The notes below the pieces were generated by a model. That model searched no databases. It had not been told where the DNA came from and was given only the letters and a program-made list of their open reading frames with translations. DNA of 22,787 bases from a virus: IMG/VR virus record IMGVR_UViG_3300009405_000027, positions 1 to 22,787 of that record. One strand, 5' to 3'. Positions within the stretch are counted from its first letter, which is position 1; the number at the start of each line of letters is the position of its first letter. The translations under genes were made by a program, and so were the position numbers. Shown here piece by piece: positions 6,439-22,082 of the stretch.

Positions 6439-6447
6439 GGGTACCCC

Positions 6448-6560
6448 AGTTCATAGGGTTAGTTGGGTTTATTGAGTTCATTGGGTTTCCGGGAACCCGG
6501 TAACGCAACAAACTCAACGAACTCAAGCAACTCAAAACGCTATGCGCTTTGCTCTTTGCG
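6448..6560. repeat. Inverted 9-nt repeat arrays joined to a 7-nt array (chaperone / tape measure gap)
   Basis: On the plus strand, units GGTTAGTTG, GGTTTATTG, AGTTCATTG are followed by a GC-rich centre with GGGTTTCC/GGGAACCC, then inverted units CAACAAACT, CAACGAACT, CAAGCAACT. Three contiguous 7-mers follow at 6540-6560: CTATGCG, CTTTGCT, CTTTGCG. The arm TTGAGTTCATTG pairs with CAACGAACTCAA with one mismatch. The stop codon of the frameshifted chaperone frame (TAG at 6542-6540) is part of the first 7-mer. Confidence 0.85.
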
Positions 6561-6902
6561 CTCTTGGGCGCGGAGCTCCAGAATGGCATCGATGCAGATC
6601 CGGACGCGGTCCATGAGGATCGGGCGCTGGCCTTTAGGAACGCGATAAATACGGAAAACAGAATCAACGGCGCCATAATCGAAAGAACCGTCGCCACGGC
6701 AAAGACCGGGGAGCATGCGCAGCAGCAAACGCGAAAAAGGCCTGTTTTCCTCATCCAGCCGGGGGACCCGGTCAAGGGGACATTTGGCTGCGCTTTCGAT
6801 GCCATGACATTCAACCTTTACATATCCGTCGTGTTGGGCCTTGTGGCAGAGCTCGCAGGTGTAATGGTTTCTTGAAAAAAACCACGCGGCCCATTGAGTT
6901 AG
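6540..6902 (-). CDS. Tail assembly chaperone, -1 frameshift extension (gpT-like part)
   Basis: This frame lies -1 to the upstream chaperone gene and is open without a break from the CTA codon at 6902 to TAG at 6542-6540, 120 codons. It has no plausible start or ribosome binding site of its own. Read through a -1 slip it gives a chaperone fusion of 234 residues. The extension starts LTQWAAWFF and contains cysteines spaced CX2C-X12-C-X8-C (HYTCELCHKAQ, then VECHG and AAKCP), a probable zinc ribbon. The end, LRAQERKEQSA, is encoded in the intergenic 7-mer repeat. Synteny (tube, chaperone with frameshift, tape measure) is the lambda G/GT arrangement. The zinc ribbon is seen in sequence; its role in binding tape measure or tube protein is inference. 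Confidence 0.8.
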   Translation of the reverse strand, partial: LTQWAAWFFSRNHYTCELCHKAQHDGYVKVECHGIESAAKCPLDRVPRLDEENRPFSRLLLRMLPGLCRGDGSFDYGAVDSVFRIYRVPKGQRPILMDRVRICIDAILELRAQERKEQSA

Positions 6903-7243
6903 TTTTTTTCCGCTTCCTCTTTTTTGCGGTTGAAATCAAAAGATTTGCTGATGACGAAAGCCGGGATGCCGCTCATCTGGAAAGCAAAGATCTTCTCCTT
7001 GATTTCTTCGGTAAGCTGGAGCGGGTTGTCGTCGGCATCCGTCAAATACCTGGCCCGTTTCAAGGAGCGCATGAAGACTTTCTTCTGTTCCTTGCCCGAT
7101 ATGAGGATGTTGCTTTCGGGCGTGATGATAAAATTCATCTCCTCCTGGGGGTAGGGCTCGATTTCGAGCTCGCATTGCATGTTGTCGATTTTGTATGTGT
7201 GCCATTGGGCCTTGATGGTAAGGCCGGTAAAGTCTAGTTTCAT
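6899..7243 (-). CDS. Tail assembly chaperone (gpG-like)
   Basis: 114 residues, ATG at 7243 with CGGAGG 8-9 bases upstream. The product is acidic to mixed and compact (MNFIITPESNILISGKEQKK, then IKEKIFAFQMSGIPAF), consistent with the soluble chaperone that coats the tape measure during tail assembly. It ends GAA AAA AAC TAA, placing a canonical slippery heptamer right at the stop. It stands between the tail tube gene and the tape measure gene. Family membership rests on position, length and the frameshift site rather than on a strong sequence motif. Confidence 0.82.
   Translation of the reverse strand: MKLDFTGLTIKAQWHTYKIDNMQCELEIEPYPQEEMNFIITPESNILISGKEQKKVFMRSLKRARYLTDADDNPLQLTEEIKEKIFAFQMSGIPAFVISKSFDFNRKKEEAEKN
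6902..6908 (-). promoter_or_regulatory. Programmed -1 ribosomal frameshift site (A AAA AAC)
   Basis: In the chaperone reading frame the last codons are GAA AAA AAC TAA, so the heptamer is A AAA AAC, a canonical X XXY YYZ site. The -1 frame downstream is open for 120 codons. A possible weak stem, TGGTTT with AAACCA, lies at 6884-6865, about 18 bases downstream; its stimulating role is unproven. Confidence 0.82.
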
Positions 7244-7262
7244 GTAAAATCCTCCGGATTTT

Positions 7263-7335
7263 GGTTTATTGAGTTTATTGGGTTTGTTGGGTTCATTGTG
7301 TTTTTTGCTTTGCGCTATGCTCTATGCGCTTTGCG
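7263..7335. repeat. Composite array: five 9-mers fused to four 7-mers
   Basis: Plus strand, with no spacer bases: GGTTTATTG, AGTTTATTG, GGTTTGTTG, GGTTCATTG, TGTTTTTTG (7263-7307), then CTTTGCG, CTATGCT, CTATGCG, CTTTGCG (7308-7335). It fills the gap between the stop of the upstream tail tube gene (7337) and the chaperone ribosome binding site. This array has one arm only, unlike the hairpin types. Confidence 0.88.
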
Positions 7336-7336
7336 G

Positions 7337-8233
7337 TTATGTGTCGGCCCTGAATGTGGGCAGCCCTTGTACTTCAAAGGTGACCGGTTCTGTGACCAGC
7401 TCACCGATGGGGGCCTGGATGTTCAGGCCGGTGATGACGGCCCAGCATATGTAATGGTCACCGGTCTGGTCCTGGTCCGGATCGTAGGTGAAAAGCTGCA
7501 ACAGGTGGTATTTCTGGGTACCGTCGAGCTCATCCTCCAGGGAATCGAAAAAGGATTTGCCGCCGATGAGATGGGCGTTGGCGTTGCCGGCGGCACTGGC
7601 CAGGCCGGGGAGAAACTCTTTCCACTTCTGGCCGGCACGGCTTGCGTCGGCCATGTCGAGGGTGAAATTGAGGCTCCAGTCGCGCAAATAGCCCACCTTT
7701 TGCATGGCGGCATAGGGGATGTAACCGTTATTGCCGGCTACGGTCACTACGGTGACGTTTCCGTCGAAAACGGCCGCGCCGCGCGAGTGGTCGAGGCGGA
7801 TCACGCTCTGCCCGCCCGAATCGGTGAAGGTGGGCGGGACGTTGGGGTTGAGGATCCGCTTGTCCGCGTCGGTGATCTGGCCCTCGATGCCGGACTCGGT
7901 GCAGGCCTCGGTGTCGAGGTTGCCGATGGCCCATTTATCGCCCAGAGTGTGGCCGGTGGTGGCGCCGAAAGTGACCGTCTGGGAATCGCTCAGGGTCTGG
8001 GCTCCACCGGTGATGGCCACGCCGGTGGTATAGGCCCCGCCGTTTTTGCGCCATTTGAAGGTATCCGGGGTGCCGGCGGCGTCGATTTCAACTTCGAAAT
8101 AAGCCGACGATCCGCCGCCGCTGTACCCGGTGCCCCAGGTCAGATCATTGAGCCCGGATCCGGAAAAACCGTTTGGCCGTAGCCGGTACAAATTGGCGTG
8201 TAGCCCATGAATGGGGGATGTAGGGCTTGGCAT
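7337..8233 (-). CDS. Tail tube protein paralogue with inserted Ig-like/beta module
   Basis: 298 residues, ATG at 8233 with AAAGGAG 9-10 bases upstream. The start (SPIHGLHANLYRLRPNGF) and the C-terminal third (DWSLNFTLDMADASRAGQKW, then KEFLPGL) closely parallel the next tail tube protein upstream (TPIHGKVCRVEKNG; SWNINVSMDVADISRQGQNW, KEILPGM), so the two are paralogues. Between them, about residues 40-110 hold a module (YFEVEIDAAGTPDTFKWRKN, AITGGAQTLSDSQTVTFG, TTGHTLGDKW) that recurs in many phage tail and fibre proteins. It is probably displayed on the outside of the tube. Position before the chaperone suits a tube or terminator-like protein. The tube call rests on paralogy; which copy forms the bulk tube is open. 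Confidence 0.8.
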   Translation of the reverse strand: MPSPTSPIHGLHANLYRLRPNGFSGSGLNDLTWGTGYSGGGSSAYFEVEIDAAGTPDTFKWRKNGGAYTTGVAITGGAQTLSDSQTVTFGATTGHTLGDKWAIGNLDTEACTESGIEGQITDADKRILNPNVPPTFTDSGGQSVIRLDHSRGAAVFDGNVTVVTVAGNNGYIPYAAMQKVGYLRDWSLNFTLDMADASRAGQKWKEFLPGLASAAGNANAHLIGGKSFFDSLEDELDGTQKYHLLQLFTYDPDQDQTGDHYICWAVITGLNIQAPIGELVTEPVTFEVQGLPTFRADT

Positions 8234-8262
8234 AAGGCTTTGCTCCTTTCAGTCGCAAGTTG

Positions 8263-8347
8263 AGTTTATTGGGTTTGTCGGGTTCATTGGGTTTGTCGGG
8301 TTTTTCGTACTCAATAAACTCAAAAAACTCTATCAACCCAATAAACT
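8263..8347. repeat. Inverted 9-nt repeat arrays (hairpin) between the two tail tube genes
   Basis: Plus strand left arm 8263-8307: AGTTTATTG, GGTTTGTCG, GGTTCATTG, GGTTTGTCG, GGTTTTTCG. After TA, the right arm 8310-8345 is CTCAATAAA, CTCAAAAAA, CTCTATCAA, CCCAATAAA, ending CT. AGTTTATTGGGTT (8263-8275) is perfectly complementary to 8335-8347 (13 bp), so a long hairpin forms in the transcript of either strand. Confidence 0.88.
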
Positions 8348-8358
8348 GCGTTTGCGCA

Positions 8359-8772
8359 TTACGCCAGGGTTTTGCTCAAGGCGCCGGTGCCCTGGAAATT
8401 GACGGTGAATTTGACCGCATCGCCGATGCCGGGGCCAAAAGACACGCCGGTGATGTAGAGATCTCCGGAAAAGTAATCGCCGGTGTCCTCCAGGTTGAAC
8501 TCCATGTCTGTGAGCTTGGTGCCGGGGGTGGCAACGATGATGTTGTCAAAGATGGCGGCCTGCTCGGTATTGCCGTGCACGGCCTGGCCGGAAAATGAGC
8601 CGTCCCAACCGGACATTCCGGGCAGGATCTCTTTCCAGTTTTGGCCCTGGCGCGAGATGTCGGCCACGTCCATGCTGACGTTGATATTCCAGCTTTCGGT
8701 GAACTCCATCAGGGTACCGTTTTTCTCAACGCGGCACACTTTGCCGTGGATGGGAGTGGTGTTGCCTGCCAT
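8359..8772 (-). CDS. Tail tube protein
   Basis: 137 residues, ATG at 8772 with GGAGG about 9 bases upstream. The product has the alternating hydrophobic strand pattern and size of a siphovirus tail tube subunit. It shares the core segment SWNINVSMDVADISRQGQNW with the larger downstream paralogue and ends in a strand (AVKFTVNFQGTGALS) typical of the beta-sandwich tube fold. It lies between tail completion genes and the chaperone, the normal place of the major tail protein. Being short and free of inserts, it is the better candidate for the main tube subunit. Exact family not confirmed. Confidence 0.82.
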   Translation of the reverse strand: MAGNTTPIHGKVCRVEKNGTLMEFTESWNINVSMDVADISRQGQNWKEILPGMSGWDGSFSGQAVHGNTEQAAIFDNIIVATPGTKLTDMEFNLEDTGDYFSGDLYITGVSFGPGIGDAVKFTVNFQGTGALSKTLA

Positions 8773-8793
8773 TTTTCATTTCCTCCGTTAAAG

Positions 8794-8900
8794 GGTTATT
8801 GGGTTCGTTGGGTTTGTTGAGTTTATTGGGTTGTTGGATTTGTTGGGTCTTTTAACTCAATAAACCCGATAAACTCTATCAACCCCATAAACCCTATTTG
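8794..8900. repeat. Inverted 9-nt repeat arrays before the tail tube gene
   Basis: Plus strand left arm: GGTTATTG, GGTTCGTTG, GGTTTGTTG, AGTTTATTG, GGTTGTTG, GATTTGTTG (8794-8845), then GGTCTTTTA. Right arm from 8856: CTCAATAAA, CCCGATAAA, CTCTATCAA, CCCCATAAA, CCCTATTTG. Two left units are 8-mers, so indels occur within units. The stop codon of the 63-residue gene (TAG at 8896-8894) lies in the last unit. Confidence 0.85.
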
Positions 8901-9085
8901 CGTTTGCCGGTTTTGGCCGGCGGGCTTTTATACTCGAAAAGGGGCTTTTGCTCCAGGTCCACGATGGTGGTGCGGGCCTGGGGGCAATCCATACAGCCGG
9001 GCTCCACGTCCTTTTTAAGGTTGCGCAGGCAGCCGCCTTTTTGCTTCTCGCACTCGATTCTTATCTGGCCTTTGTAGGGTTTCAC
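8894..9085 (-). CDS. Small four-cysteine protein of the tail region
   Basis: 63 residues from GTG at 9085, chosen because AGGAGC lies 7 bases upstream and because upstream in-frame codons come from the repeat array. The sequence is basic with four cysteines at 12, 19, 31 and 34 (IECEKQKGGC, then EPGCMDC), a likely zinc-binding knuckle, followed by a basic tail ending AKTGKRK. It lies between the tail completion gene and the tail tube gene. I do not recognise the family. A structural or assembly role in the tail is inferred from position only. Confidence 0.62.
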   Translation of the reverse strand: MKPYKGQIRIECEKQKGGCLRNLKKDVEPGCMDCPQARTTIVDLEQKPLFEYKSPPAKTGKRK

Positions 9086-9110
9086 GATGCTTGCTCCTTT
9101 TAGTCGCTTC

Positions 9111-9168
9111 GCGCATAGGGCATGGCGCATGGCGTTTTTGCTTTGCGCTTTGCGCTCAGCGCTATGCG
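9111..9168. repeat. Inverted 7-nt repeat array downstream of tail completion gene
   Basis: Plus strand left arm GCGCATA, GGGCATG, GCGCATG (9111-9131), loop GCGTTTTTG, right arm CTTTGCG, CTTTGCG, CTCAGCG, CTATGCG (9141-9168). CGCATAG at 9112-9118 pairs perfectly with CTATGCG at 9162-9168. The TAG stop of the tail completion gene is at 9164-9162, inside the last unit. Confidence 0.85.
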
Positions 9169-9635
9169 AATGGGTCGCCGCCCTGGGAATAGATGGTCGA
9201 AATCTTCAAAATCATGGCCACATCGAAAAACGGGAAAAACTCGATCTGGGAAAACTCGGTTTCAACGGTCTGCAGGAAAAAGCCGGCCGGGATCACGGCG
9301 GCGATGGCGGCCAAAACGTACTGGCGTAAGGTTTCGATGTGATCCACGCCCTGGTACTCCACCACGTTGGCCTTGCCGGTGGCGGCCTCGCTTGAGTTGT
9401 AGAGCTCGCACACGACGCCGAAGACGTGGTTCTGTTCGCTCAGTGCGTAGCCCTCGGCCTTGGCATCCATGGCCAGCATGACAAGCGGGCAGTCGTCTTT
9501 TCCGGGCGGCTTGCGCAGATCGATGCCCACATATACCTTGTGGTTGCGGCCATATTGGGCCGTGCACCACGTTTGCGTGTCGCTGTCGTCGTGGATGGCG
9601 TTTCGCAGGGTATCTTTGAGGGTGATCATGTTCAT
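9162..9635 (-). CDS. Tail completion / minor tail protein
   Basis: 157 residues from ATG at 9635, which overlaps the TGA of the upstream gene as ATGA; GGAG lies 8 bases upstream. The product starts MNMITLKDTLRNAIHDD and runs through YVGIDLRKPPGKDDCPLVML and HIETLRQYVLAAIAAVIP to EFFPFFDVAMILKIS, the size and pattern of the tail completion/terminator proteins (gp17-like) that cap siphovirus tails. It follows the HK97-gp10-like position gene, as usual. Its last residues and stop codon are encoded by the 7-mer repeat. Confidence 0.72.
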   Translation of the reverse strand: MNMITLKDTLRNAIHDDSDTQTWCTAQYGRNHKVYVGIDLRKPPGKDDCPLVMLAMDAKAEGYALSEQNHVFGVVCELYNSSEAATGKANVVEYQGVDHIETLRQYVLAAIAAVIPAGFFLQTVETEFSQIEFFPFFDVAMILKISTIYSQGGDPFA

Positions 9636-10300
9636 ATATATTCTCCGGCCATTTTGCGCTCCCACTTATCAACCATGTTCTGCTGAACTTCGTTTTCGTT
9701 TGCTCTCAAGAAGGGATCGACTAGCGGACGTGGCGGAAGCTGCTGTGCAAAGGATCCCAACCGCCGGCGGGCATGCGTGGTCAAAAAGAAAAACTTTGCG
9801 TCCGGATCGCCGCGTTTTTCCAGTATGGCGCCGATGCGGGCAAAATGTCTGCCCAATCTCGTGCGGCTGTTCCCCTCAGCTTTTCGGGCTTCTTTTATCT
9901 CGCTTCGCAAAGCTTTTCCGCCTGCCTGATGCTGTAAGAGCAGTCGCTTCCAGGAACGCTTTTTCATCTGGCCGCTCAGAAAGCCGACACTGAGGTTGAC
10001 CTTTTTACCCTGTTTTTCCACGTTGTAGCGCACCAGACGGCCCGTGCGGGCCAGGGGCTTGCGGGCAAATTTCTTGAATTTGCCTTTCTTGGTGCGGCGC
10101 GCGAGCTGGGTCAGCGGCTTCAGGCGGGTGCCGCCGGGCCGGGCCTTGTAGACCTCGCCCTTGAGTTTCTCGCGCAGCCGGTTCCCCTCCGACCTGGCAG
10201 CGATTTCGGCGGCCTTGACGCGCTGTTTGTCGATGGCATCCAGGTCTTTCTTCAAGCCTTGGGCATTGCGCCAGATCAGTCGTGCAGCGGAAGTGCTCAT
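9632..10300 (-). CDS. Minor tail / head-tail connector protein (DUF6441- or gp10-like)
   Basis: 222 residues from ATG at 10300, which overlaps the upstream TGA as ATGA; the longer in-frame extension overlaps the neighbouring gene and is rejected. The protein is very basic (RRTKKGKFKKFARKPLARTG, then GQMKKRSWKRLLLQHQ) and ends with PPRPLVDPFLRANENEVQQN. The RPLVDPFL-like C-terminal motif is typical of phage head-tail connector proteins in this position ("prohead-tail" gp10 families and DUF6441). A link between neck and tail is inferred from synteny. Coupled translation with both neighbours suggests fixed stoichiometry. Confidence 0.7.
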   Translation of the reverse strand: MSTSAARLIWRNAQGLKKDLDAIDKQRVKAAEIAARSEGNRLREKLKGEVYKARPGGTRLKPLTQLARRTKKGKFKKFARKPLARTGRLVRYNVEKQGKKVNLSVGFLSGQMKKRSWKRLLLQHQAGGKALRSEIKEARKAEGNSRTRLGRHFARIGAILEKRGDPDAKFFFLTTHARRRLGSFAQQLPPRPLVDPFLRANENEVQQNMVDKWERKMAGEYI

Positions 10301-10641
10301 AAGACAGGCCTCGTTTCGCGTTCGCACACACAGACCCACTCGCCGGCGAAATCCATTGCGGGGCGCCTTTCGCGGACACCGTCGGGAACTACGGTCCACG
10401 TCTGGGAATCGTCCACACCGTCGGTGATGGCAAAGGTGTCCAGATAGCCGGGGCGGGAATCGACCTCGCTTTGGCGAACGCAGATCTCGGCGCGATGCAC
10501 GCGGGCGCCGGGCTCGTTTGCAGCCTCGTCCAGATCGGGCTGGTCACGGAAAAGGATGGTGACGGCGGATCCGGAACCACCGGCCGGCGTGTAGGTGGCC
10601 GATACGCCGAAAAGCGTATAGTGGTCATCAGTGAGGGTCAT
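10297..10641 (-). CDS. Head-tail joining protein (gpFII-like)
   Basis: 114 residues, ATG at 10641, four bases after the TAA of the gene upstream and with no strong ribosome binding site. The sequence (HYTLFGVSATYTPAGGSGSA, ILFRDQPDLDEAA, ARVHRAEICVRQSEV, DDSQTWTVV) has the strand order and length of lambda gpFII/attachment-type head-tail joining proteins. Its place after the capsid and before the gp10-like gene agrees. Family assignment is by pattern and synteny. Confidence 0.75.
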   Translation of the reverse strand: MTLTDDHYTLFGVSATYTPAGGSGSAVTILFRDQPDLDEAANEPGARVHRAEICVRQSEVDSRPGYLDTFAITDGVDDSQTWTVVPDGVRERRPAMDFAGEWVCVCERETRPVL

Positions 10642-10645
10642 GTTC

Positions 10646-10885
10646 TTACGGCGCCGGATCCGGTTTGGGTTGCGGCTTGATCCATTCTAATTTGGCGGCG
10701 GTGGCTTTATCCGGTTTGTCCAGGGAGATAAGCTCACCGGCCTTGAACTGCACCGGCCCGACGATCTCGTAAACGCCTTTTTTGACCGGTTTCAGGTTCC
10801 GGGCCCGGCGGGCTGCCTGCTCCTCTGACAGCCCGATAAGACCTCCGAACAAATCCACGACAGCCGTGGTTTCGTATTTGCGCAT
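10646..10885 (-). CDS. Small hypothetical head-region protein
   Basis: 79 residues from ATG at 10885 with AAAGGAG 8-9 bases upstream. It begins MRKYETTAVVDLFGGLIGLS, has EEQAARRARNLKPVKKGVYE, then KAGELISLDKPDKATAAKLE, and ends in a Pro/Lys tail. Similar short proteins follow the capsid gene in many lambda/Mu-like phages and contribute to head completion; that analogy is inference. No cysteine, signal peptide or membrane segment is visible. Confidence 0.65.
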   Translation of the reverse strand: MRKYETTAVVDLFGGLIGLSEEQAARRARNLKPVKKGVYEIVGPVQFKAGELISLDKPDKATAAKLEWIKPQPKPDPAP

Positions 10886-10909
10886 GACACGCTCCTTTCA
10901 GCGGTATTC

Positions 10910-11053
10910 GCATGGTGCATGGCGCAGAGAGCATGGCGGGTTGATACGGTTTGGCTTTGCTTTGCTCTATGCGCTTTGCTCTATGCGCGTTTGGGCGCAT
11001 GGCGCGGGGCAAGTTGATGGTTTTGCTTTGCGCTATGCTCTTTGCGCTATGCG
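10910..11053. repeat. Double 7-nt repeat hairpin between capsid and small head gene
   Basis: Plus strand, two successive copies. Copy 1: GCATGGT, GCATGGC, GCAGAGA, GCATGGC (10910-10937), loop starting GGGTTGATACGG, then CTTTG, CTTTGCT, CTATGCG, CTTTGCT, CTATGCG (to 10987). Copy 2: GCGCATG, GCGCGGG, loop with AAGTTGATGGTTTTG, then CTTTGCG, CTATGCT, CTTTGCG, CTATGCG (to 11053). Left and right arms are inverted, and the loop shares GTTGAT with the arrays at 12043 and 21995. Confidence 0.87.
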
Positions 11054-11056
11054 CTT

Positions 11057-12010
11057 TTATGCCAGGGTCACAAGACAGCCGTTTTGCCAGTAACCGTAGC
11101 CCACGTTGCGCCAGGTATCGACGCCATATTGATGGGCATCGTTGTCAAACTCGTACTCGGAGCCTTCACCCTTGACTTTCAGGCTTACCTTGGTTTCCTC
11201 CTGGCGGATAAAGGCCTTCATGGCCGAATCGGTTCGGAACACGGCAAAAGAATCGGTCCAATCCGACAGGCGGGCATTGGGCACGGCGGAGATGGAAAAA
11301 TCCTGCTTGAGCGCCTGCAGGGCCGTCTGGCTGGCATCCACCTGGATGGGGGTGGCCACGGCCTGCTTGGCCACATTCATAAGTGACACCGGCACCATGG
11401 CCAGAAAAGCAGATGCGTTTTCGTTCATGGGTTCGCCCTGATCATCTTTGAAAGCTGCGATCTGGGCAATGGCCTGGGCGATGGCAAGCTGCATTTCCTC
11501 GACGCTGGGCGCCGTGGTGCTGCCGTGCACCGCGCAGGGCAAAGCGGAGATGTCCACCGAAATATCGTTGTCCTGGGTGCCGGAATCGCCCTCGGAATGA
11601 TCCGTGTCAAAAAAGTACTGGCCGTCATAGCAGACCGTGGCGGATGCGTTTAAAATGAGCGTGGTAAGCAACGAGGCCCAATGGGCGTTTGTTCGCCGCG
11701 CCAGCTCCTGGATGCGAACCATGACCTGGCCGGTCTTGTCGCGGCGAAGGTCTTTGACCAGATACTCGATGGTGGCCTCATAGTGTTTGTTTGTGATTGT
11801 CAGATTGTTTTCGCGGAAGCCCTTGGCATTGCGGCCGCCGACCCACTCACGCATGGCCGGTGACATGCCGAGCCAGGCGTATTCCTCCGAGCTTTGATCG
11901 GAAGTGAAATAGTTTGAAACAGCATTGATCCAGGCGGCGCCCGAATCCTGTTGCAGGGTCTTGTAAAACTCCCCGATGATTTGCCGCTCTGTGATTTTTT
12001 TAATTCCCAT
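11057..12010 (-). CDS. Major capsid protein (Mu gpT-like)
   Basis: 317 residues, ATG at 12010 with AAGGAG about 7 bases upstream. The sequence matches the Mu-like major head subunit gpT family: AMREWVGGRNAKGFRENN, ITNKHYEATIEYLVKDLRRD, KTGQVMVRIQELARRTNAHW and the hallmark CYDGQYFFDTDHSEGDSGTQ. It forms the HK97-fold icosahedral shell. Length is near that of Mu gpT (about 305). It follows the decoration gene and a 7-mer repeat gap. The capsid is of Mu type although terminase, portal and protease are lambda-like, a mosaic arrangement. Confidence 0.93.
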   Translation of the reverse strand: MGIKKITERQIIGEFYKTLQQDSGAAWINAVSNYFTSDQSSEEYAWLGMSPAMREWVGGRNAKGFRENNLTITNKHYEATIEYLVKDLRRDKTGQVMVRIQELARRTNAHWASLLTTLILNASATVCYDGQYFFDTDHSEGDSGTQDNDISVDISALPCAVHGSTTAPSVEEMQLAIAQAIAQIAAFKDDQGEPMNENASAFLAMVPVSLMNVAKQAVATPIQVDASQTALQALKQDFSISAVPNARLSDWTDSFAVFRTDSAMKAFIRQEETKVSLKVKGEGSEYEFDNDAHQYGVDTWRNVGYGYWQNGCLVTLA

Positions 12011-12042
12011 GTTATTCTCCTTTTTTGCTCATGGTGGTATTT

Positions 12043-12120
12043 GCATGGCGCATAGTGCAGAGTGCATGGCAGGTTGATATTGTTTGGTTTTGCTCTGCTC
12101 TCTGCGCTTTGCTCTTTGCG
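12043..12120. repeat. 7-nt repeat hairpin between decoration and capsid genes
   Basis: Plus strand left arm GCATGGC, GCATAGT, GCAGAGT, GCATGGC (12043-12070), a 22-base loop AGGTTGATAT then TGTTTGGTTTTG (12071-12092), right arm CTCTGCT, CTCTGCG, CTTTGCT, CTTTGCG (12093-12120). The loop differs at only a few bases from that at 22018-22039. The capsid ribosome binding site lies about 30 bases beyond the left arm, outside the hairpin. Confidence 0.88.
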
Positions 12121-12124
12121 CGTT

Positions 12125-12886
12125 TTAGGCTTCCATGGCCCAGGTGCCTTTGAGCTTGCGCACAAGCCAGCCGTTGGCATCGCCGTACTCGATGTCGGCA
12201 TAGTCTCCCCGGTTGGCGGTGGCCTTGGTGTTGATCAGGTCCTTGTCATCCACACCGGTCAGGTCCGGGCCCTCGATCATGTCGTTTGCGTTGGGGCTGA
12301 TGTTGACGGCCACGGCGCCGTAAGCGCCGGCGTTGACGATGCGGCAAGCGATGCCCTCGACGGCCAAAAGGGTGATGGCCTTGGCGTCGGTATCCACAAA
12401 AAAGACCTTGCCGTCATCCAATTTGTCGAGGGTCTTATTGTCGCTGACGGTTTCGGCGGTAAGGCCTTCGTGGGGATCCACGTATTTGTCAACGTCAAAC
12501 TCGACAATCATGTAGCCGGAGGACACAAAGCGCCGGGCAAAGCCGATAAAAACACCGCTGGTCTTGAGAAAAGAAAAGGCGTTATCATCCTGGGCATAAA
12601 CGGGGCAGCCCACGTCAGTGATGACAGCACCTGTGACGGCCAGTTTGACCGCACCTTTACGGTGAACGCGCACGTTGATGGCGGCTGCCGCGCCGGCGGA
12701 GTTGTCGGCCTGTTTCTCGGCAAAGCCGGCAAACTGGTCCGCGCTGGTCAGGGGCCGGGCGTGGCCGGAGGCCTTGACCAGGCCGACGGCGGCGCCTTCA
12801 TAAATAATGTCCGAAGCGATGACCGCAAACTCGTTACGGTCGCCGATCTCGAAGTCTCTGGCCGTGTCTGCTGATAAGGTTGTCAT
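12125..12886 (-). CDS. Two-domain capsid decoration (cement) protein
   Basis: 253 residues, ATG at 12886 with AGGAGGG 7 bases upstream. Residues 1-135 (EIGDRNEFAVIASDIIYEGA, AVGLVKASGHARPLT, QFAGFAEKQADN, VRVHRKGAVKLAV) match the small beta-barrel decoration/DUF2190-like proteins encoded just before phage capsids. Residues 140-253 form a second domain (NKTLDKLDDGKVFFVDTDAK, ACRIVNAGAYGAVAVNISP, LINTKATANRGDYADIEYG, GWLVRKLKGTWA) of a type also found in capsid-associated proteins. The second domain probably sits on the outer surface. Role is inferred from family and position between protease and capsid genes. Confidence 0.8.
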   Translation of the reverse strand: MTTLSADTARDFEIGDRNEFAVIASDIIYEGAAVGLVKASGHARPLTSADQFAGFAEKQADNSAGAAAAINVRVHRKGAVKLAVTGAVITDVGCPVYAQDDNAFSFLKTSGVFIGFARRFVSSGYMIVEFDVDKYVDPHEGLTAETVSDNKTLDKLDDGKVFFVDTDAKAITLLAVEGIACRIVNAGAYGAVAVNISPNANDMIEGPDLTGVDDKDLINTKATANRGDYADIEYGDANGWLVRKLKGTWAMEA

Positions 12887-12940
12887 GTTTTAACCCTCCT
12901 TGAAAATTTTAAGGATTTTTCCTTTTTATGGTTTTGGGAT

Positions 12941-15850: not shown

Positions 15851-15900
15851 GTATTCCCCCAAATATGGTTGTGCAAAATAATTGCAAACACCATATCATG

Positions 15901-15991
15901 GGGTTTTGGGGTGATTTCACGCTTTGTATACGTTTTGTATACGTTTTATATATGTTTTTTATACGATATTACTATTGACAGGGTTTTGGGG
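15901..15991. promoter_or_regulatory. Iterated 11-bp repeats, candidate operator of the structural operon
   Basis: Four tandem 10/11-base units lie at 15923-15965 on the plus strand: TTTGTATACG, TTTTGTATACG, TTTTATATATG, TTTTTTATACG. Two contain the palindrome GTATAC. They are flanked 80 bases apart by the direct repeat GGGTTTTGGGG (15901-15911 and 15981-15991). The region lies 50-140 bases upstream of the first structural gene and downstream of the terminator at 16007. No convincing sigma-70 promoter could be assigned here, so an activator-dependent promoter is possible. Function inferred. Confidence 0.55.
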
Positions 15992-16006
15992 AGGGGAAAG
16001 AGGAAT

Positions 16007-16033
16007 AAAAAAATCCGCCCGAAGGCGGATTTT
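16007..16033 (-). terminator. Intrinsic terminator with UUCG loop
   Basis: Read on the minus strand: AAAATCCGCC, loop TTCG, GGCGGATTTT and a run of seven T in all. The 10-bp stem, stable tetraloop and U-tract make a strong terminator for the helix-turn-helix/small membrane protein operon and isolate the structural operon downstream. A shorter T run on the other strand may give weak plus-strand termination. Confidence 0.9.
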
Positions 16034-16077
16034 AAGAAAGAAATGAAACGGATTTAATGATTAAGGAGTAATTTTTT

Positions 16078-16245
16078 TCATTTTATCAAACTAGCGCCGA
16101 TTCCAATCACGAGAGCAATAAGGATTGCAAACAAAAGATTCTTTACCCAACCGATGTCGCTTGCCATCTGTTTCAAATTGAATACTATAGCACCACTTTG
16201 ACACATCCGGTCACAAGGTAATGACTTTATTATATTTGGCTTCAT
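16078..16245 (-). CDS. Small single-pass membrane protein (XhlA-like pattern)
   Basis: 55 residues from ATG at 16245, eight bases after the TGA of the helix-turn-helix gene and ending at TGA 16080-16078, before the terminator. An N-terminal polar part (MKPNIIKSLPCDRMCQSG) is followed by LKQMASDIGWVKN and one membrane helix, LLFAILIALVIGIGASLI, then a final Lys. Helix, short amphipathic approach and C-terminal Lys recall XhlA-like proteins of phage lysis loci. No other lysis gene is visible in the window. Weak Shine-Dalgarno; probably coupled to the gene upstream. Coding status is supported by the exact membrane segment and gene-to-terminator layout; function is a guess. Confidence 0.6.
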   Translation of the reverse strand: MKPNIIKSLPCDRMCQSGAIVFNLKQMASDIGWVKNLLFAILIALVIGIGASLIK

Positions 16246-16253
16246 AATAAAAT

Positions 16254-16526
16254 TCATTCCGCATCATCCGGAATCTGTTTCATGCGCACATTTGTCCGTT
16301 GCTGAAAAAAGCGATCGATGTTGTCGACGTGGGCATACCAGAGCCCATCAATAGTGCAGGCGGGCATTCCCATTTTTACAAATTTCAAAAACGTGTGCCG
16401 TGAAATGGGGGATCCATCTATCCGAGACAGATACGCCATGATGGCTTCGGCGCCGATGAGCACCTTTTTGGGTTGAACGGCGCCGAATGCCTCGGTCAAT
16501 TTCTGGAGTAGCTGCTTTTCATTCAT
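16254..16526 (-). CDS. Small DNA-binding protein with winged helix-turn-helix
   Basis: 90 residues, ATG at 16526. Residues 20-70 (KKVLIGAEAIMAYLSRIDGS, PISRHTFLKFVKMGMPACT, GLWYAHVDNIDRFFQQ) have the excisionase/MerR/Nu1-like layout: a helix that places the domain, a turn, a recognition helix with SRHTF, and a wing ending in the W-Y-A-H region, then DNIDRFF. Such proteins are regulators, excisionases or small terminase subunits. Since a small terminase candidate exists upstream, a regulator is more likely. It is followed by the small membrane protein and a terminator, so it forms a separate short operon between the terminase and head modules. Confidence 0.72.
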   Translation of the reverse strand: MNEKQLLQKLTEAFGAVQPKKVLIGAEAIMAYLSRIDGSPISRHTFLKFVKMGMPACTIDGLWYAHVDNIDRFFQQRTNVRMKQIPDDAE

Positions 16527-16545
16527 TGGTTAATCCGTCTCACAG

Positions 16546-16582
16546 GCTGAGTTGCGGCGTTTTTTCAGCCGTCAACTCAAGC
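16546..16582. other. attC-like imperfect hairpin (tentative)
   Basis: TGAGTTG (16548-16554) and CGGC (16555-16558) pair with GCCG (16568-16571) and CAACTCA (16573-16579), leaving one bulged T at 16572. The minus-strand flank GGGCTAACAAGTCGCTTGAG resembles an integron attC left end (R''-like), but the opposite end (GGATTAACC) fits GTTRRRY poorly. It may be a simple hairpin. Confidence 0.2.
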
Positions 16583-16651
16583 GACTTGTTAGCCCAACCT
16601 ATTGATTTACCTTCTAGAATACGATTTATTAAAAAAAAGTGAAAAAAAGAC

Positions 16652-16680
16652 TTGACATCTTGATTGTAAAGATATATATT
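16652..16680 (+). promoter_or_regulatory. Strong sigma-70 type promoter for the plus-strand island
   Basis: TTGACA at 16652-16657, 17 bases spacing, TATATT at 16675-16680. The -35 is perfect and the spacing ideal; an A-rich upstream tract (16631-16649) could act as an UP element. A further TATAAT (16680-16685) is spaced too far (22) from this -35. Confidence 0.87.
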
Positions 16681-16713
16681 ATAATCAAAACAATAAAACA
16701 GGAGGTAAAGACA

Positions 16714-17202
16714 ATGAGAGACCAAATCGTAACCATCAACATTATCCCCTCTGACTACACAGGGAACCCACGTGACGCTCTTGGTTATTACTGGGCAAAT
16801 TTCGCCGATAAAATCCCCGGTGAAGATATTGTCTTGGAGCACGACCCCAAAAAGGGCGTTGCATGGAGAGCTTATCTGATGGACAGGTTCGGCGAGGATG
16901 TGGAGATCGACAACCATAATAATTACGGGTGGCTTAAAGACACGCCGGGGCAGATTATTGCCACGTTTAATTGCATGTGGTGCGGCGGGGTGTCCGGTGT
17001 CGTCTACCAGCCTCATGCTGGCACTACACCGCCGGAGGGTTTTGACCATAAACAGACTGGCGATTCTCTCGCGGATACAGCCGCCCGCGAGAAATTGGCG
17101 GAGGATATCGATCTGATGGAGATGGATGAGCTGCACAAAAATCATCCCGGATATTGCACCAAATGCCACAGCTTTTGTTACGGGGATTGCGAAGCAAATT
17201 AA
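16714..17202 (+). CDS. Cysteine-rich hypothetical protein, first gene of plus-strand island
   Basis: 162 residues from ATG at 16714, eight bases after GGAGG (16701-16705) and 34 bases after the -10 box; an in-frame ATG at 16639 lies upstream of the promoter and is rejected. The N-terminal 85 residues are compact and mixed (DYTGNPRDALGYYWANFADK, then GVAWRAYLMDRFGEDVEID). Cysteines at 87/90 (CMWC) and 148/151/155/159 (CTKCHSFCYGDC) suggest one or two zinc sites. A charged helical linker (REKLAEDIDLMEMDELHK) precedes the last cluster. No known family recognised. Own promoter and orientation against the phage operons suggest expression independent of the lytic programme, as in lysogenic cargo (moron) genes. 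Confidence 0.78.
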   Translation: MRDQIVTINIIPSDYTGNPRDALGYYWANFADKIPGEDIVLEHDPKKGVAWRAYLMDRFGEDVEIDNHNNYGWLKDTPGQIIATFNCMWCGGVSGVVYQPHAGTTPPEGFDHKQTGDSLADTAAREKLAEDIDLMEMDELHKNHPGYCTKCHSFCYGDCEAN

Positions 17203-17248
17203 TCTATTTTCGGGGGCCGCGCATCCTACACGCGGGAAAGGATACAAT

Positions 17249-17557
17249 ATGACAGACCAATGGAAATCAATTGGATTGTATGAGCACCCGGTAAAGCACC
17301 AGGCCGGGACGTATGGCAACGTGGTATTATCGACAGCGGGGGTGTACGCCCTGCTCGTCGGCGTATCGCAGATGTCCTGCCCCCAGGGCTGGGCAGCTAA
17401 AATCCACAAAGAGGAAGGCGATGAAAAAGAAGCTGCCATTATCATCCGCAACGTGCCCGAGTCCATCCGTCGCAATCTCAAGGCAAAGGCAGCCCTGGAA
17501 GGTAAGTCCATGCAGGGGCTAATCTTGGAGTTAATCACACGGTATGTCTCAGGATAA
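17249..17557 (+). CDS. Ribbon-helix-helix (FitA/Arc-like) protein, second gene of island
   Basis: 102 residues from ATG at 17249, with GGGAAAGG 5-8 bases upstream; longer starts overlap the gene before. The C-terminal 40 residues (AIIIRNVPESIRRNLKAKAA, then LEGKSMQGLILELI) are a clear ribbon-helix-helix DNA-binding domain like FitA-type antitoxins. The N-terminal 55 residues (IGLYEHPVKHQAGTYGNVVL, STAGVYALLVGVSQMSC) are not recognised. No PIN or other toxin gene follows; the terminator at 17577 comes next. It could repress its own operon or bind the 11-bp repeats at 15923. Order, binding domain at the C-terminus, is opposite to most antitoxins. Confidence 0.75.
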   Translation: MTDQWKSIGLYEHPVKHQAGTYGNVVLSTAGVYALLVGVSQMSCPQGWAAKIHKEEGDEKEAAIIIRNVPESIRRNLKAKAALEGKSMQGLILELITRYVSG

Positions 17558-17576
17558 TCTTTCATCTTTACCCACG

Positions 17577-17600
17577 GCCCCGGTCCTCCGGGGCTTTTTT
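17577..17600 (+). terminator. Intrinsic terminator of the plus-strand island
   Basis: GCCCCGG (17577-17583), loop TCCT, CCGGGGC (17588-17594), then TTTTTT (17595-17600). A perfect 7-bp GC stem with a four-base loop and U-tract, ending 2 bases before the stop of the convergent ParB-like gene. No U-tract is present on the minus strand. Confidence 0.93.
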
Positions 17601-17602
17601 AT

Positions 17603-19315
17603 TTAGATGTTTACCAGGCGCTCTCGTTCGCCCTCTGGGAATATTTCAAGCGGGGTCTTGCCGGTGAGTTCGACACCGGATTCAAGCAACAGCTTGACCA
17701 GCTCCGATTTTTTACAGCTTTCAAACCTGCCGCGTTTTTTGAGCAGGACTTCATAGAGGTAGTCTTTGGCCTTTTTGTCCTCGGTGATGCCGTGGACCTG
17801 AGCAAAGGAGAGGAGCTCGGCCTTGGTCTTTTTTTTGCAGTACTCCTCATCGATGGCAAACTCCCGGCCCAGATCGATACCAACATATTTGGCGATTTCG
17901 TGCCGGTGACCGTCGTCATGGCTCTGTAAAACCACCTGGGCGGCGGCCTCGCGGAAGGCCTCCATGATCTGGTCGCGGTCCATCCGACTTACGGCTGCAA
18001 ACAGGTCTTTATGCGAGATGTGATAATATGTTGGGCGCTCCCAACTTTCAGTATCTTCAGGGGGCGGTTCTTTCAGGCCAGTTTTTAACGAAAACCATTC
18101 ATGGAGACCGTTATTGGATTTCAAAAGAGCGAAAAGCGCGAGCTGGTAATTACGCTCATCCTCGTTGTCGATGACCGCGATTTTCTCCGGGAGCGTGGCC
18201 TGGTAGAACTTTTCGCGGAAGTGCTCCCCGTGCCAGGTGGGGCGCTTGGACTCGCCGGAGGATTTTGAACCGGATACGGTGCTGCGGGATTCTACTTTAA
18301 AACATTTTTTGTCACCGATGCAGGCCTGTGGAGTGTTTTCGCTGCCGTCCACACTTATTAAGGTTACAAAATGCTCGCACGTATGGCATGCTTTCTTTGC
18401 GCGGCGGGCGTAGCCGAATGACTCGTAATCGTTCCAGCCAAAATCCTCTCTGAATCGGAATCCAACGGTTTTATTGGCCTGGTGATACTTGCTCTTTTCC
18501 CAATTTGCCAAAAGCCAGTTGTTTTGCTGCTGCTTGAAACAGCGCGGATCGAGACAGGACTTTTTCTCGCCGTCCAGGTCAAAAAGCTTTTTCTGTACGT
18601 CGCTGTTGCGCTGGCAGGTGGTGCAGCCGGCCTTTTTCAAGTCAAAAAGGGCATGTTTGAGGGCCGGGGCCCTGCTGTCAATCTCGCTTTTGAGCTCCTT
18701 TACGGTCGTGGTTTCGCCCCGACGTTTAAAGCGCTGTCTTATTTCGAACAATATCTTGCCGAGCAAAGGCTTGTTATTCTTTACACGGACGAGCTGCTCA
18801 AGGTGGCCGTAAAGGAACTCGCCCTCATCCCACATCTTGAGCACGGCCTTGGGGAGATCGAGGACGGCCACGCGCCGGCGGATGTAACGGGGGTGGATGC
18901 CGGTGCGCTCGGCCAGATCGGGGAGGGCCTCGTCGCCCTTTTTGTTCAGGTAGACGGCAAAGGCGCGGGCCTCCTCCAGGGGGGTGAGATCCTCGCGCTG
19001 CAGGTTCTCGATGGTCATGAGGTCGAAGGCGGCCGAGTCGTCGAGCTCGCGCACCATGGCCGGGATGGTGGCGCCGGTCAGGCCACCGTTTTGCCTGGCG
19101 ACCTTGAGGGAGGCACGGAAGCGGCGCTCACCGAAAATGATCTCATAAGGGGTCTTTTTGGATTTGACCGGTCGCACCAGGATGGGCGATATGACGCCCT
19201 GCTTTTTGACGGAGGCCACCAGGTCGTTGAAAGTGGGCCCGGAAAAGCGCTTGCGCGGGTTGGCGGGGTTGGGTCGGATCCGGGTCAGGTCTATTTCTTG
19301 AATTTGCTGTGTCAT
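17603..19315 (-). CDS. ParB/Spo0J-like protein with two Cys4 clusters
   Basis: 570 residues, ATG at 19315 with GGAGG 8 bases upstream. Residues 5-110 are a ParB N-terminal domain: RPNPANPRKRFSG, GVISPILVRPV, the GERRFRAS box (62-69) and ENLQREDLTPLEEARAF. Residues 130-165 hold the helix-turn-helix (DLAERTGIHPRYIRRRVAV). It then departs from chromosomal ParB, with two similar cysteine clusters, C231-X2-C234-X19-C254-X4-C259 and C310-X2-C313-X18-C332-X5-C338, and an acidic/basic C-terminus that repeats a SAP-like motif (KAELLSFAQVHGITEDKKAK; KSELVKLLLESGVELTGKTP). It may bind a phage or host site and spread on DNA. It follows terL by 12 bases, with the tail of terL as leader. Role in packaging, replication or silencing is unknown. 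Confidence 0.85.
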   Translation of the reverse strand: MTQQIQEIDLTRIRPNPANPRKRFSGPTFNDLVASVKKQGVISPILVRPVKSKKTPYEIIFGERRFRASLKVARQNGGLTGATIPAMVRELDDSAAFDLMTIENLQREDLTPLEEARAFAVYLNKKGDEALPDLAERTGIHPRYIRRRVAVLDLPKAVLKMWDEGEFLYGHLEQLVRVKNNKPLLGKILFEIRQRFKRRGETTTVKELKSEIDSRAPALKHALFDLKKAGCTTCQRNSDVQKKLFDLDGEKKSCLDPRCFKQQQNNWLLANWEKSKYHQANKTVGFRFREDFGWNDYESFGYARRAKKACHTCEHFVTLISVDGSENTPQACIGDKKCFKVESRSTVSGSKSSGESKRPTWHGEHFREKFYQATLPEKIAVIDNEDERNYQLALFALLKSNNGLHEWFSLKTGLKEPPPEDTESWERPTYYHISHKDLFAAVSRMDRDQIMEAFREAAAQVVLQSHDDGHRHEIAKYVGIDLGREFAIDEEYCKKKTKAELLSFAQVHGITEDKKAKDYLYEVLLKKRGRFESCKKSELVKLLLESGVELTGKTPLEIFPEGERERLVNI

Positions 19316-19327
19316 GGTTATTCCTCC

Positions 19328-21274
19328 TCATATGTGAATGCCCCGGTTTAACACGCGGCGTTTCGACTTGGGCGGCGCTACGGCGTTGGGGGGCGGTTTT
19401 TGCTTCCAAAAGCGCAGCCCGATAATCTCGGCCGCCACCAGGTTGTAGACCGAAACGTCCCAGGCGTGATTGGCCCGGCCGGACATACATTGCCAGAGAC
19501 CTTTTTCGTCCACATATTCGGCCGTCATCTGGCGCGCCCATTCAAAGGGGGTCTCGCTATGCAGATGCCAGGCACCTGGATCGGCCGGGGAGATCTCCAG
19601 GATGTTTGAAAGCCGGTTTTTAAAAAAGGTGGTGTTGGCGCGCAGAAGCTGCAGGCCGCCCGGGATCGGTTTGTTGGTGCCGGGGTAAGTCTCGAGCTTG
19701 GAATAGGCAAAAGGTGCGTTCATGCGCTGCTCGCCTTTGAGCGGAAAGCTGCGACCGCGGTGCAGGCAGCAAAAATCGTAAACCTCCGATGTGCGCGTAC
19801 CCTCCCCGAGTGTCTCGCGCGCGACGCCTCCCATGGCATCGATGACCAGCATCTGCACCACGTATTTGCGGCCATCTGCATCGCGGTATTCGTCGTCGAA
19901 CATGATTTGCTCCAGGGCCTTAAAGGTGGGGGCAAATCCTTCGCGCACCTGCCAGCTCTCCCGGGTCAGACCGTAGGCCCAGGCGCGGATCTCGTAATAA
20001 AAGCCGTTGGCCTGGGTGTCTGCCGCGCCGGTGAGACCGGCCACGCTGCCACCGGCCGGCACCAGCCCGCGAGGGCGCTCGTCGGCCAGATTTAGAATGG
20101 CATCCTCGCTGCGCTCCACGGTGTAATCGCGCCACGGTTCGGCCTTATGGGCATTGAGAAAGTCCTTGAGCTTGCTTTTGTTTTTGAGACCGCGCAAAAA
20201 GGCCGCCGCCGGCTCGTTCAGGCTCACGAAGAAGGAAAGCCAGCTTGGCAGGTGAAAACCGATCTTACGCGGCCGTTGCGCCTGCAGATAGTCAAAAAGC
20301 TCCCGGCCGCTTTCGCGCTCGCGCCATTCACCGGCGCGTACGGCGCGGTCGCGTTCGGCATCCCCCCAATGCTGGTCGCAATGCGGGCATTCATACCAGG
20401 CCAGGCCCTTGGACACGACCCGCTCCGGATCGCGCTCGCCCTCGGGCCATTTGATCTGCTCAAAGGTCATCAGATGCAAAACGCCACAGGCCGGACATTT
20501 GACATGATAGTCAAATACGGCCTGGGCCTCCGTGGTAAGGGCCAGCCAGATGGGACCCGTTTCGATCGTAGGGGTTGAAATCTTCCAGATCTTGCGGTTC
20601 CAGCGGTAAGTGGTGGTCCGTTTTTCACCCAGCGAAATGGGATCGGCCTCTTTTTTGCCGGCCGTCTCGGGATATTTGTCGCATTCGTCAAAAACCACAT
20701 AGCGAATCGGTTTGTTGGCCAGACGCGCGGCTGAGCGGGCCCAGGCCAGATAGATGGGCATATGCGACAGATTGACACGCATGCTGCTGACATCGTCATC
20801 CACCCCGGTCAGATAGGAGCGCAGGCGCGGGGATGATTCGATCATGGGCTGAATGCGATCGTTGCAGTTTTCGCGCGACGTATCCCGGTCCGGGTAGACG
20901 TACAGGACCGGACCCGGGGCGCGGTCGATGACATATCCGATGCAGTTGTGCACCGATTCGGACTTGCCCGTCTGGGGCGCGGCGCATACGATGATCGTCT
21001 GCACGGATGAGAAGAAGGCCGCGTCCATGATGCCGGCCAAATAGGGCGTGGCTTCGTTTTTCCAGGGCCCCGGCAACGGCCCCGCAGTGAGCATGCGGTG
21101 GCGTTCAGCCCAGGCGCTGGCAGGGATTTTTTTGCGCTTGCGCAGGACTTTCTTTTCGGCGCGAGTGAAACCGGTGGTGATCTCGATGCGGCCTTCCAAA
21201 GCCAACTGCGCTTGCAGACCCGGGGGGAGCCAGGACGGCTTCGTAACCGTAATCGATGTGGTTTCAAGAGACAT
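19328..21274 (-). CDS. terL: Terminase large subunit (lambda gpA-like)
   Basis: 648 residues from ATG at 21274, with CGGAGG 6 bases upstream, preferred over ATG 21292. Walker A AAPQTGKS (residues 98-105) and Walker B YVVFDECDKYP (Asp196/Glu197) define the packaging ATPase. Two CxxC pairs (CPACGVLHL, YECPHCDQHW) form the zinc ribbon of this family. The nuclease part has GLTGAADTQANGFYYEI, the first acidic residue of the RNase H-like site, and VIDAMGG later. It cuts concatemers and pumps DNA into the prohead, probably at cos sites as in lambda. It overlaps the small terminase by 11 bases. Confidence 0.95.
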   Translation of the reverse strand: MSLETTSITVTKPSWLPPGLQAQLALEGRIEITTGFTRAEKKVLRKRKKIPASAWAERHRMLTAGPLPGPWKNEATPYLAGIMDAAFFSSVQTIIVCAAPQTGKSESVHNCIGYVIDRAPGPVLYVYPDRDTSRENCNDRIQPMIESSPRLRSYLTGVDDDVSSMRVNLSHMPIYLAWARSAARLANKPIRYVVFDECDKYPETAGKKEADPISLGEKRTTTYRWNRKIWKISTPTIETGPIWLALTTEAQAVFDYHVKCPACGVLHLMTFEQIKWPEGERDPERVVSKGLAWYECPHCDQHWGDAERDRAVRAGEWRERESGRELFDYLQAQRPRKIGFHLPSWLSFFVSLNEPAAAFLRGLKNKSKLKDFLNAHKAEPWRDYTVERSEDAILNLADERPRGLVPAGGSVAGLTGAADTQANGFYYEIRAWAYGLTRESWQVREGFAPTFKALEQIMFDDEYRDADGRKYVVQMLVIDAMGGVARETLGEGTRTSEVYDFCCLHRGRSFPLKGEQRMNAPFAYSKLETYPGTNKPIPGGLQLLRANTTFFKNRLSNILEISPADPGAWHLHSETPFEWARQMTAEYVDEKGLWQCMSGRANHAWDVSVYNLVAAEIIGLRFWKQKPPPNAVAPPKSKRRVLNRGIHI

Positions 21275-22007
21275 TATGAGCCTCCGTTTCATCCTCCAAA
21301 ACGATCACCTGATATCGGTCCATGGTGGCGAACTCGTTCAGCTTTTCGTCCAGATCTTCGTTGATGGTATTCAGGAGGCGGGGCCGTTTTTTGATATTGC
21401 CGTCCACCAGGGCGATCCAGTCCGCGATTCGGGTTTGGGCCATGTAGCGCAGGCCGGCTTCCAAAACCGCCGTACGCGCGGCCAGTTCCTGCTCGAAAGC
21501 GGTCCGCAGGATGTATTTACCCTGATTCACTTCACGCTTAAAGCGGATCTCCTCGGTCTGCTCCAGGATCTTGTCCAGCTCGGCCTGGGCTTTTTTAGCC
21601 AGGATCTCGGGGGCGTCGCCGCCGGGCCGGTCCGGTTTTTTTAACCCGGCCACCGTAATGTAAACCATGAGATCTTTTTCGAGTACGCTTCCATCGGGTT
21701 GGACTTTTAAAAGCTGCTTCGGTCCGGGAGCCGCATCTTTGTATAGCTTGCTTTTTTGGATGATCCCCCTGTTTGTCCCGTAGCCGAGATGCTGTAAATG
21801 TTTCAGAGCCTTCATGCGGTCATCGAAAAAAGGCTCATCCTCGGCGCCGCTTAGCATCCGGGATGCTTTTTCCAACGCCGCCAGGTTGCCGGCGTTGGGA
21901 TCCTCCTCGACCCTGACCCGGGCCTTTTCCTTGGCCCGGGTCAGGACCTCAATGTCGGATGATGGTTTGGTTTTGGTGATAATTCCCTCCTTTAGCGCAT
22001 GGAGCAT
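21264..22007 (-). CDS. Terminase small subunit-like DNA packaging protein
   Basis: 247 residues from ATG 22007, but this ATG is inside the 7-mer repeat and has no Shine-Dalgarno. The best site in the region, AAAGGAGG (21993-21986), lies inside the frame and points to ATC at 21980 (five bases away) with no ATG, GTG or TTG nearby; the true start is uncertain. The protein has a helical N-terminus (IEVLTRAKEKARVRVEED, then ALEKASRMLSGA) and a long coiled segment (AQAELDKILEQTEEIRFKRE), ending in an acidic stretch with RLLNTINEDLDEKLNEFA. Such architecture and position just before terL agree with a small terminase (DUF1441/Nu1-like role). It probably binds packaging sites and recruits the large subunit. 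Confidence 0.72.
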   Translation of the reverse strand: MLHALKEGIITKTKPSSDIEVLTRAKEKARVRVEEDPNAGNLAALEKASRMLSGAEDEPFFDDRMKALKHLQHLGYGTNRGIIQKSKLYKDAAPGPKQLLKVQPDGSVLEKDLMVYITVAGLKKPDRPGGDAPEILAKKAQAELDKILEQTEEIRFKREVNQGKYILRTAFEQELAARTAVLEAGLRYMAQTRIADWIALVDGNIKKRPRLLNTINEDLDEKLNEFATMDRYQVIVLEDETEAHNVS

Positions 22008-22081
22008 GGCGCATAGCGGGTTGATGATGTTTGGTTTTGCTTTGTGCTCTGTGCTATGCGCTTAGCGCCATGCACTTTGCG
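21995..22081. repeat. 7-nt repeat hairpin between antirepressor-like and small terminase genes
   Basis: Plus strand left arm GCGCATG, GAGCATG, GCGCATA (21995-22015), loop GGGTTGATGA then TGTTTGGTTTTG (22018-22039), right arm CTTTGTG, CTCTGTG, CTATGCG, CTTAGCG, CCATGCA, CTTTGCG (22040-22081). It touches the stop of the upstream gene at 22083 and its left end carries the apparent ATG of the small terminase. Confidence 0.88.
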
Positions 22082-22082
22082 T

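Follow-up and report, generated by a model that had tools for sequence, protein, structure and literature searches.

The short-unit repeat arrays between the late genes of this phage are probably copies of dispersed, REP/BIME-like intergenic elements that are native to a group of Desulfobacteria, bacteria of sulfate-reducer type, and now reside in a phage of that group. In the window (the whole 22,787-nt stretch analyzed, from an IMG/VR virus record), a tailed phage has its late genes on the minus strand, among them those for a GpA-type terminase, portal, head protease, Mu-like gpT capsid, tail tube proteins, and tape measure. Eight gaps between co-directed late genes, with a combined length of 879 nt or 3.9% of the window, are occupied by arrays of 7-nt or 9-nt units (Table 1), and all eight arrays were found where an earlier note on this DNA had placed them. 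A period scan of the window returned 6 runs at period 7 and 6 at period 9, against approximately 0 in shuffled sequence and 0 to 1 at most other periods. No co-oriented late gap above 54 nt lacks an array, which agrees with the note, as does its one exception (12887-12940, 54 nt); the remaining late gaps without arrays measure 0 to 12 nt or are gene overlaps.

Table 1. Arrays, control gap, and anchor gene in the window (fold z, predicted RNA folding relative to dinucleotide shuffles)
Feature	Coordinates	Strand	Score
9-nt arm pair (GGTTTATTG-type facing CAATAAACC-type) plus 7-nt arm	6439..6565	-	fold z -4.3
Chimeric array: 7-nt units (GCAAAGC/GCATAGC), then 9-nt units (AACCCAATA)	7244..7336	-	fold z -2.5
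9-nt facing arms between two tail-tube-like genes	8234..8358	-	fold z -5.2
9-nt facing arms, one indel in register	8773..8893	-	fold z -3.1
7-nt facing arms; TAG of unit GCATAG is the stop of gene 9162-9665	9089..9170	-	fold z -1.2
Two 7-nt hairpins in series, downstream of major capsid gene	10886..11056	-	fold z -4.3
Major capsid protein (Mu-like gpT)	11057..12010	-	Pfam PF10124, E 5.5e-39
7-nt facing arms, loop AAAACCAAACAATATCAACC, upstream of major capsid gene	12011..12124	-	fold z -3.6
Control late gap without array, 54 nt	12887..12940	-	fold z +0.7
7-nt facing arms, loop AAAACCAAACATCATCAACC, before small-terminase-position gene	21990..22082	-	fold z -2.1

Read along the mRNA, the arrays begin 0 to 11 nt past a stop codon or the stop lies within an array unit. 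The earlier description of arrays as following stops holds except at 6540 and 9162, where the upstream stop is itself the TAG of a GCATAG unit; at the former, the 7-nt arm overlaps both the C-terminus and the stop of the upstream reading frame. In most window gaps the array ends short of the next gene's ribosome-binding site, although the good site described for all of them is lacking in the 6439 gap, and gene 21264-22007 has no ATG 5 to 10 nt after its GGAGGG. Two further points of the note need correcting: units are out of exact register at 8793-8848, where TRF reports indels, and the array at 7263 is a chimera of a 7-nt arm and then a 9-nt arm, without facing complementary arms. Three of the 7-nt elements (10886, 12011, and 22008) have in common a loop of the form AAAACCAAAC-NNN-ATCAACC, seen as AAAGCCAAACCGTATCAACC in the second hairpin of 10886..11056. 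At that resemblance the loop was not found elsewhere among the loci read; the viral contigs that had it were limited to two further assemblies of this phage, both >99% identical to the window and identical in the array at 21990..22082.

Both unit families also occur in host-group genomes, which rules out a system confined to the phage. Across 241 genomes of the class centered on the Desulfobacteraceae MAG of locus L083, the 9-nt array at 8234..8358 had relatives in 20, compared with 1 of 40 control genomes of other groups, and the array at 8773..8893 matched one in genome G209 at approximately 81% over 102 nt. The 7-nt array was found in 4 of the 241 and in 0 of the 40 controls, a count that is probably an underestimate because BLAST needs long identical stretches. 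One MAG of the group, G104, was sampled over approximately 1 Mb, with ORF-based gene calls and with the fragmentation usual to these MAGs. Its intergenic DNA showed peaks at periods 7, 8, and 9 (136, 40, and 18 runs) and their multiples, with no runs at periods 4 to 6, 11, or 12 and 0 in Markov-simulated intergenic DNA; its coding DNA had few such runs. The search of host-group genomes that the earlier note had proposed thus turned up such arrays in number, and its count of two families proved an understatement: G104 alone has 463 arrays in approximately 70 unit families at periods 7, 8, and 9, the largest being the 7-nt family of the window. One called coding frame of G104 (L207, 3931-4127) contains alternating 7-nt and 8-nt arrays of several families. 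A search for the host by way of the capsid gene returned three distant capsid relatives (27 to 42% identity) and no close match among 60 relatives of G104.

The placement of arrays in G104 resembles that in the window. Among gaps of 60 to 400 nt, arrays were present in 133 of 291 co-directed and 18 of 33 convergent gaps and in 2 of 25 divergent ones (co-directed or convergent versus divergent, Fisher p ~2e-4 either way). In co-directed gaps, the array started within 10 nt of the upstream stop in 52% of cases, compared with 23% under random placement (maximum of 35% in 2,000 draws), and the median distances were 2 nt to the stop and 49 nt to the next start codon. The tendency was the same in phages (medians of 7 and 25 nt).

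Copies of elements were recognized at unrelated sites. Loops of different elements resembled each other at a score of at least 13 in 22 comparisons, where 0 were expected. Arms and loop are common to two sites in L278 and one in L289, in either orientation and between unrelated flanks; an element of G104 recurs in G204 over approximately 108 nt only; and a nested element of approximately 206 nt, with one facing-array hairpin (inner GCATAGC/GCTATGC arms) within the loop of another family's (outer GGTTCA/TGAACC arms), was found in both L195 and L249 (at ~17030-17300 and ~1150-1420, respectively, with differing flanks). Common loops between unrelated flanks indicate copying as whole units. Turnover is evident at orthologous positions: one gap among relatives of G104, whose flanking genes are 75 to 88% identical, has no array in some and otherwise AGCAGGG, GCATAGC, or GATTGAC plus GTGTCCG; several relatives have an array-internal stop in place of the native one. 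At a second orthologous locus the gap ranges from approximately 5 to 404 nt, as judged from match coordinates alone. From such family swaps and changes in gap length it follows that elements are gained, lost, and replaced quickly; no insertion with an intact empty site and a target duplication was caught in the loci compared. No transposase or other enzyme was linked to the elements. Genes for Y1 transposases, the RAYT type, are present in 54 of the 60 relatives and none were found in two array-bearing MAGs, and their number correlated weakly, not clearly, with an array proxy (rho 0.36, p 0.10).

Phages found through the major capsid protein as anchor show a similar picture. Arrays of period 7 or 8 occur in several of the closer relatives, for the most part with different units (GATGCAG, AATAACA, GGTTCAA, AACATCG, CAGCCAT, and AATTTTC). 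In the gap upstream of the capsid gene, the GCATAGC family is present in the window and in L014, GGTTCAA in L004/L005, GAACCCG in L006, and an AATTTTC-type array in L016, while in L003, L007, L012, L015, and L017 this gap is 5 to 29 nt long and has no array. Arrays are not a common property of the capsid lineage, as relatives in other hosts have almost none (26 intergenic period-7 runs in 0.18 Mb of close relatives versus 0 to 3 in 2.1 Mb of distant relatives from other hosts). The window families also occur in viral contigs without detectable relation to its genes, both of them in L348 and several 7-nt arrays in L352. BLAST of the arrays against sequenced phages gave no match, although a low-complexity filter may hide matches.

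Each element consists of two tandem arrays of a degenerate 7-, 8-, or 9-nt unit that face each other around a loop. In the unit profile AGCGCAT, positions 2, 4, 5, and 6 are at least 93% constant, while positions 1, 3, and 7 vary in restricted, position-specific ways common to 57 arrays. Wherever a family has two or more pairs, the order of its facing arms is fixed (21:0, 17:0, 4:0, 2:0, and 2:0 among 57 pairs in total, counts in which element copies are related and events not independent), usually with the G-richer strand first, and the window elements follow the order of the G104 families. Such a pair looks alike from either strand, so its order does not depend on gene direction; a fixed strand preference relative to transcription was rejected, as most families show none among their unpaired arrays. 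The facing arms are not matched to each other in detail. Over 33 pairs, complementarity at the variable positions was 0.821, compared with 0.816 for shuffled units (p 0.22), a level at which conserved RNA structure was rejected. The arms are independent draws from a unit cloud and pair only by way of the constant core; they represent neither inverted duplications nor hairpins tuned for exact RNA pairing.

We propose that elements multiply by copying as units, that their arms lengthen and shorten by slippage, and that the insertions that survive would mainly be those immediately after stop codons, between co-directed or convergent genes, where an array may even supply the stop of the upstream gene. 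Transfer would presumably have run from host to phage. There is good support for the possibility, raised in the earlier note, of a repeat family that lives in intergenic space, since the same families occur in host-group genomes and copies share loops and not flanks. A wider claim, that Desulfobacteria possess a general mechanism that makes and spreads head-to-head arrays of 7-, 8-, or 9-nt units, G-richer strand first, behind stop codons, is a tentative one; it would make these arrays a mobile repeat class separate from REP/RAYT, synthesized or copied by machinery of its own, with many interchangeable families in bacteria and phages.

It is rather unlikely that the arrays are functional mRNA elements whose hairpins set RNA decay or translation for each late gene and are kept by selection, the other possibility that the earlier note had raised. 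Placement behind stop codons in transcribed gaps and the predicted hairpins fit transcribed elements, and the predicted folds beat dinucleotide shuffles in most of the eight gaps (z -1.2 to -5.2). Occupancy also fits: all eight co-directed late gaps above 54 nt are filled, while four co-directed gaps adjoining the late operon, in the approximately 6.8 kb by which one assembly of the same phage (L345) extends beyond it, are empty (8 of 9 versus 0 of 4, Fisher p 0.007, on small numbers). Against selection for hairpins stand the chance-level complementarity of the arms, the related phages with unrelated units or none at the same gaps, and the exchange of families between host orthologs at 75 to 88% flank identity. 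Since families are replaced gap by gap and are absent from relatives, no specific conserved function is indicated. As copies of dispersed elements, the arrays would still form stem-loops between cistrons of the late mRNA, maybe with a mild effect on RNA decay or translation, and some role there, as modeled from predicted folds, is possible.

We consider it improbable that plain microsatellite slippage favoring units of 7 to 9 nt in neutral intergenic DNA produced the arrays without dispersal. Slippage would account for changes in length by whole units: L013 and L014, 99.4% identical, differ in one array by 35 nt (five units), and L330 and L331 differ at the orthologous gap by one 7-nt unit. 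In many bacteria, moreover, heptamers outnumber other long simple repeats (PMC4679880, PMC4692102), and polymerase slippage favoring units of 7 to 9 nt is an idea of Mrazek quoted in PMC4679880. Slippage alone, however, does not give position-specific unit variation over 57 arrays, and it leaves unexplained the fixed order of facing arms, the homologous loops at unrelated sites, and the anchoring to stop codons. For single-arm arrays, each family may have had an independent origin by slippage. Very improbable is break-fill synthesis, wherein a slipping or template-carrying polymerase would add G-rich repeats to each of the 3' ends at a break before the ends are joined, like a head-to-head telomere fusion. 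It predicts independent arms, as seen, and the G-richer strand first, as seen in 13 of 16 families, in which that strand is the 5' arm (two-sided sign test, 0.02), yet three families break the rule, loops common to unrelated sites are not predicted, and the enzyme or template is hypothetical. Intrinsic terminators, which combine a GC hairpin with a U-tract, can be dismissed, for no U-tract follows any of the eight arrays, just as the earlier note had reported.

Taken as dispersed intergenic elements, the arrays are best read as a multi-family variant of heptameric repeats located 3' of genes, carried along by a phage and most similar to the Xanthomonas GGGAATC repeats. The GGGAATC-type repeats of Xanthomonas (and GGGGA(C/T)T of Nostoc; Rehm et al. 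2015, PMC4692102) have constant and variable positions (GGGANTN) and many dispersed intergenic copies, frequently in convergent pairs (70 and 75 cases); they lie 28 nt from the 5' ORF versus 160 nt from the next, are rare between divergent ORFs, vary in length and sequence across related species, are absent from two Xac plasmids, and are of unknown function (PMC4692102). Ours likewise are tandem 7-nt units with a fixed core and variable positions, a pattern that the 8-nt and 9-nt families extend; neighboring arrays converge (57 pairs, with one order per family), lie near the upstream gene, are rare between divergent genes, and turn over fast. Unlike the Xanthomonas repeats, they comprise dozens of families per genome at periods 7, 8, and 9, are borne by phage, and in the window families mostly lack G-tracts for G-quadruplexes (0 to 2 GGG runs per gap). 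The REP/BIME elements of the GTAG and CGTC superfamilies are dispersed, palindromic, and extragenic, mostly in co-directed or convergent gaps downstream of coding regions, and are often paired, probably transcribed, and variable between strains; REPs are single palindromes of 20 to 40 bp with a GTAG or CGTC tag (PMC3733652). The arrays share the extragenic location downstream of genes in co-directed or convergent gaps; in contrast, their arms are tandem arrays of 7- to 9-nt units without such a tag, and GTAG, CTAC, CGTC, and GACG are absent from all eight array gaps.

Two other heptamer systems are more distant. The TAACTGA repeats of Beggiatoaceae (MacGregor 2015, PMC4679880) are also intergenic 7-nt tandem arrays in many copies, yet they end a few nucleotides before start codons and almost never form inverted pairs, whereas the Desulfobacteria arrays begin at stop codons (median of 2 nt) and often face each other. 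Geobacter metallireducens, also deltaproteobacterial, has tandem 7-nt and 8-nt repeats in inverted pairs, regarded as putative global regulator sites (PMC2700814); several short-unit families, opposite-strand pairs, and variable distance are common to both, and host-phage sharing, the order rule, and turnover go beyond that description. A limited literature search found no paper on such arrays in Desulfobacteria or phage. What is new is the large number of families and periods, the extension of the order rule across families, and carriage by phage. Heptameric intergenic repeats have been noticed for decades in scattered bacteria, and their origin has gone unexplained. With dozens of families in a single genome group and its phages, comparisons out of reach of single-family cases become possible (fixed arm order, independent arms, loops common to unrelated sites, family replacement at orthologous gaps, and stop-codon anchoring). 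The origin of heptamer repeats thereby becomes testable, and phages can serve as natural reporters of repeat traffic in their hosts.

Several other features of the window deserve mention. The adjoining genes at 7337-8233 and 8359-8772 both match the major tail protein families phrog_1407 and phrog_10528, which suggests from sequence a duplicated tail tube gene. Within 6540-7243, a slippery site, GGAAAAAAAC, lies at ~6904-6913 (minus strand) at the end of a 114-amino-acid frame, and a -1 shift there would give an open frame reaching 6540; this layout is that of the G/GT frameshift of tail assembly chaperones, which precedes the tape measure gene, and the predicted extension would end in the array-encoded residues EQSA. 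The small-terminase-position gene (21264-22007, minus strand) has a strong GGAGGG without ATG, GTG, or TTG at the right distance (21960-22010), and its start may be ATT or ATC or an array-internal ATG. Upstream of the head operon, a period-11 tandem repeat with approximately four copies of ACGTTTTGTAT (15919-15965) could represent operator or iteron-like sites, and the gap in which it falls (15863-16253), unlike the array gaps, has a regular intrinsic terminator (AATCCGCCTTCGGGCGGATTTTTTT).
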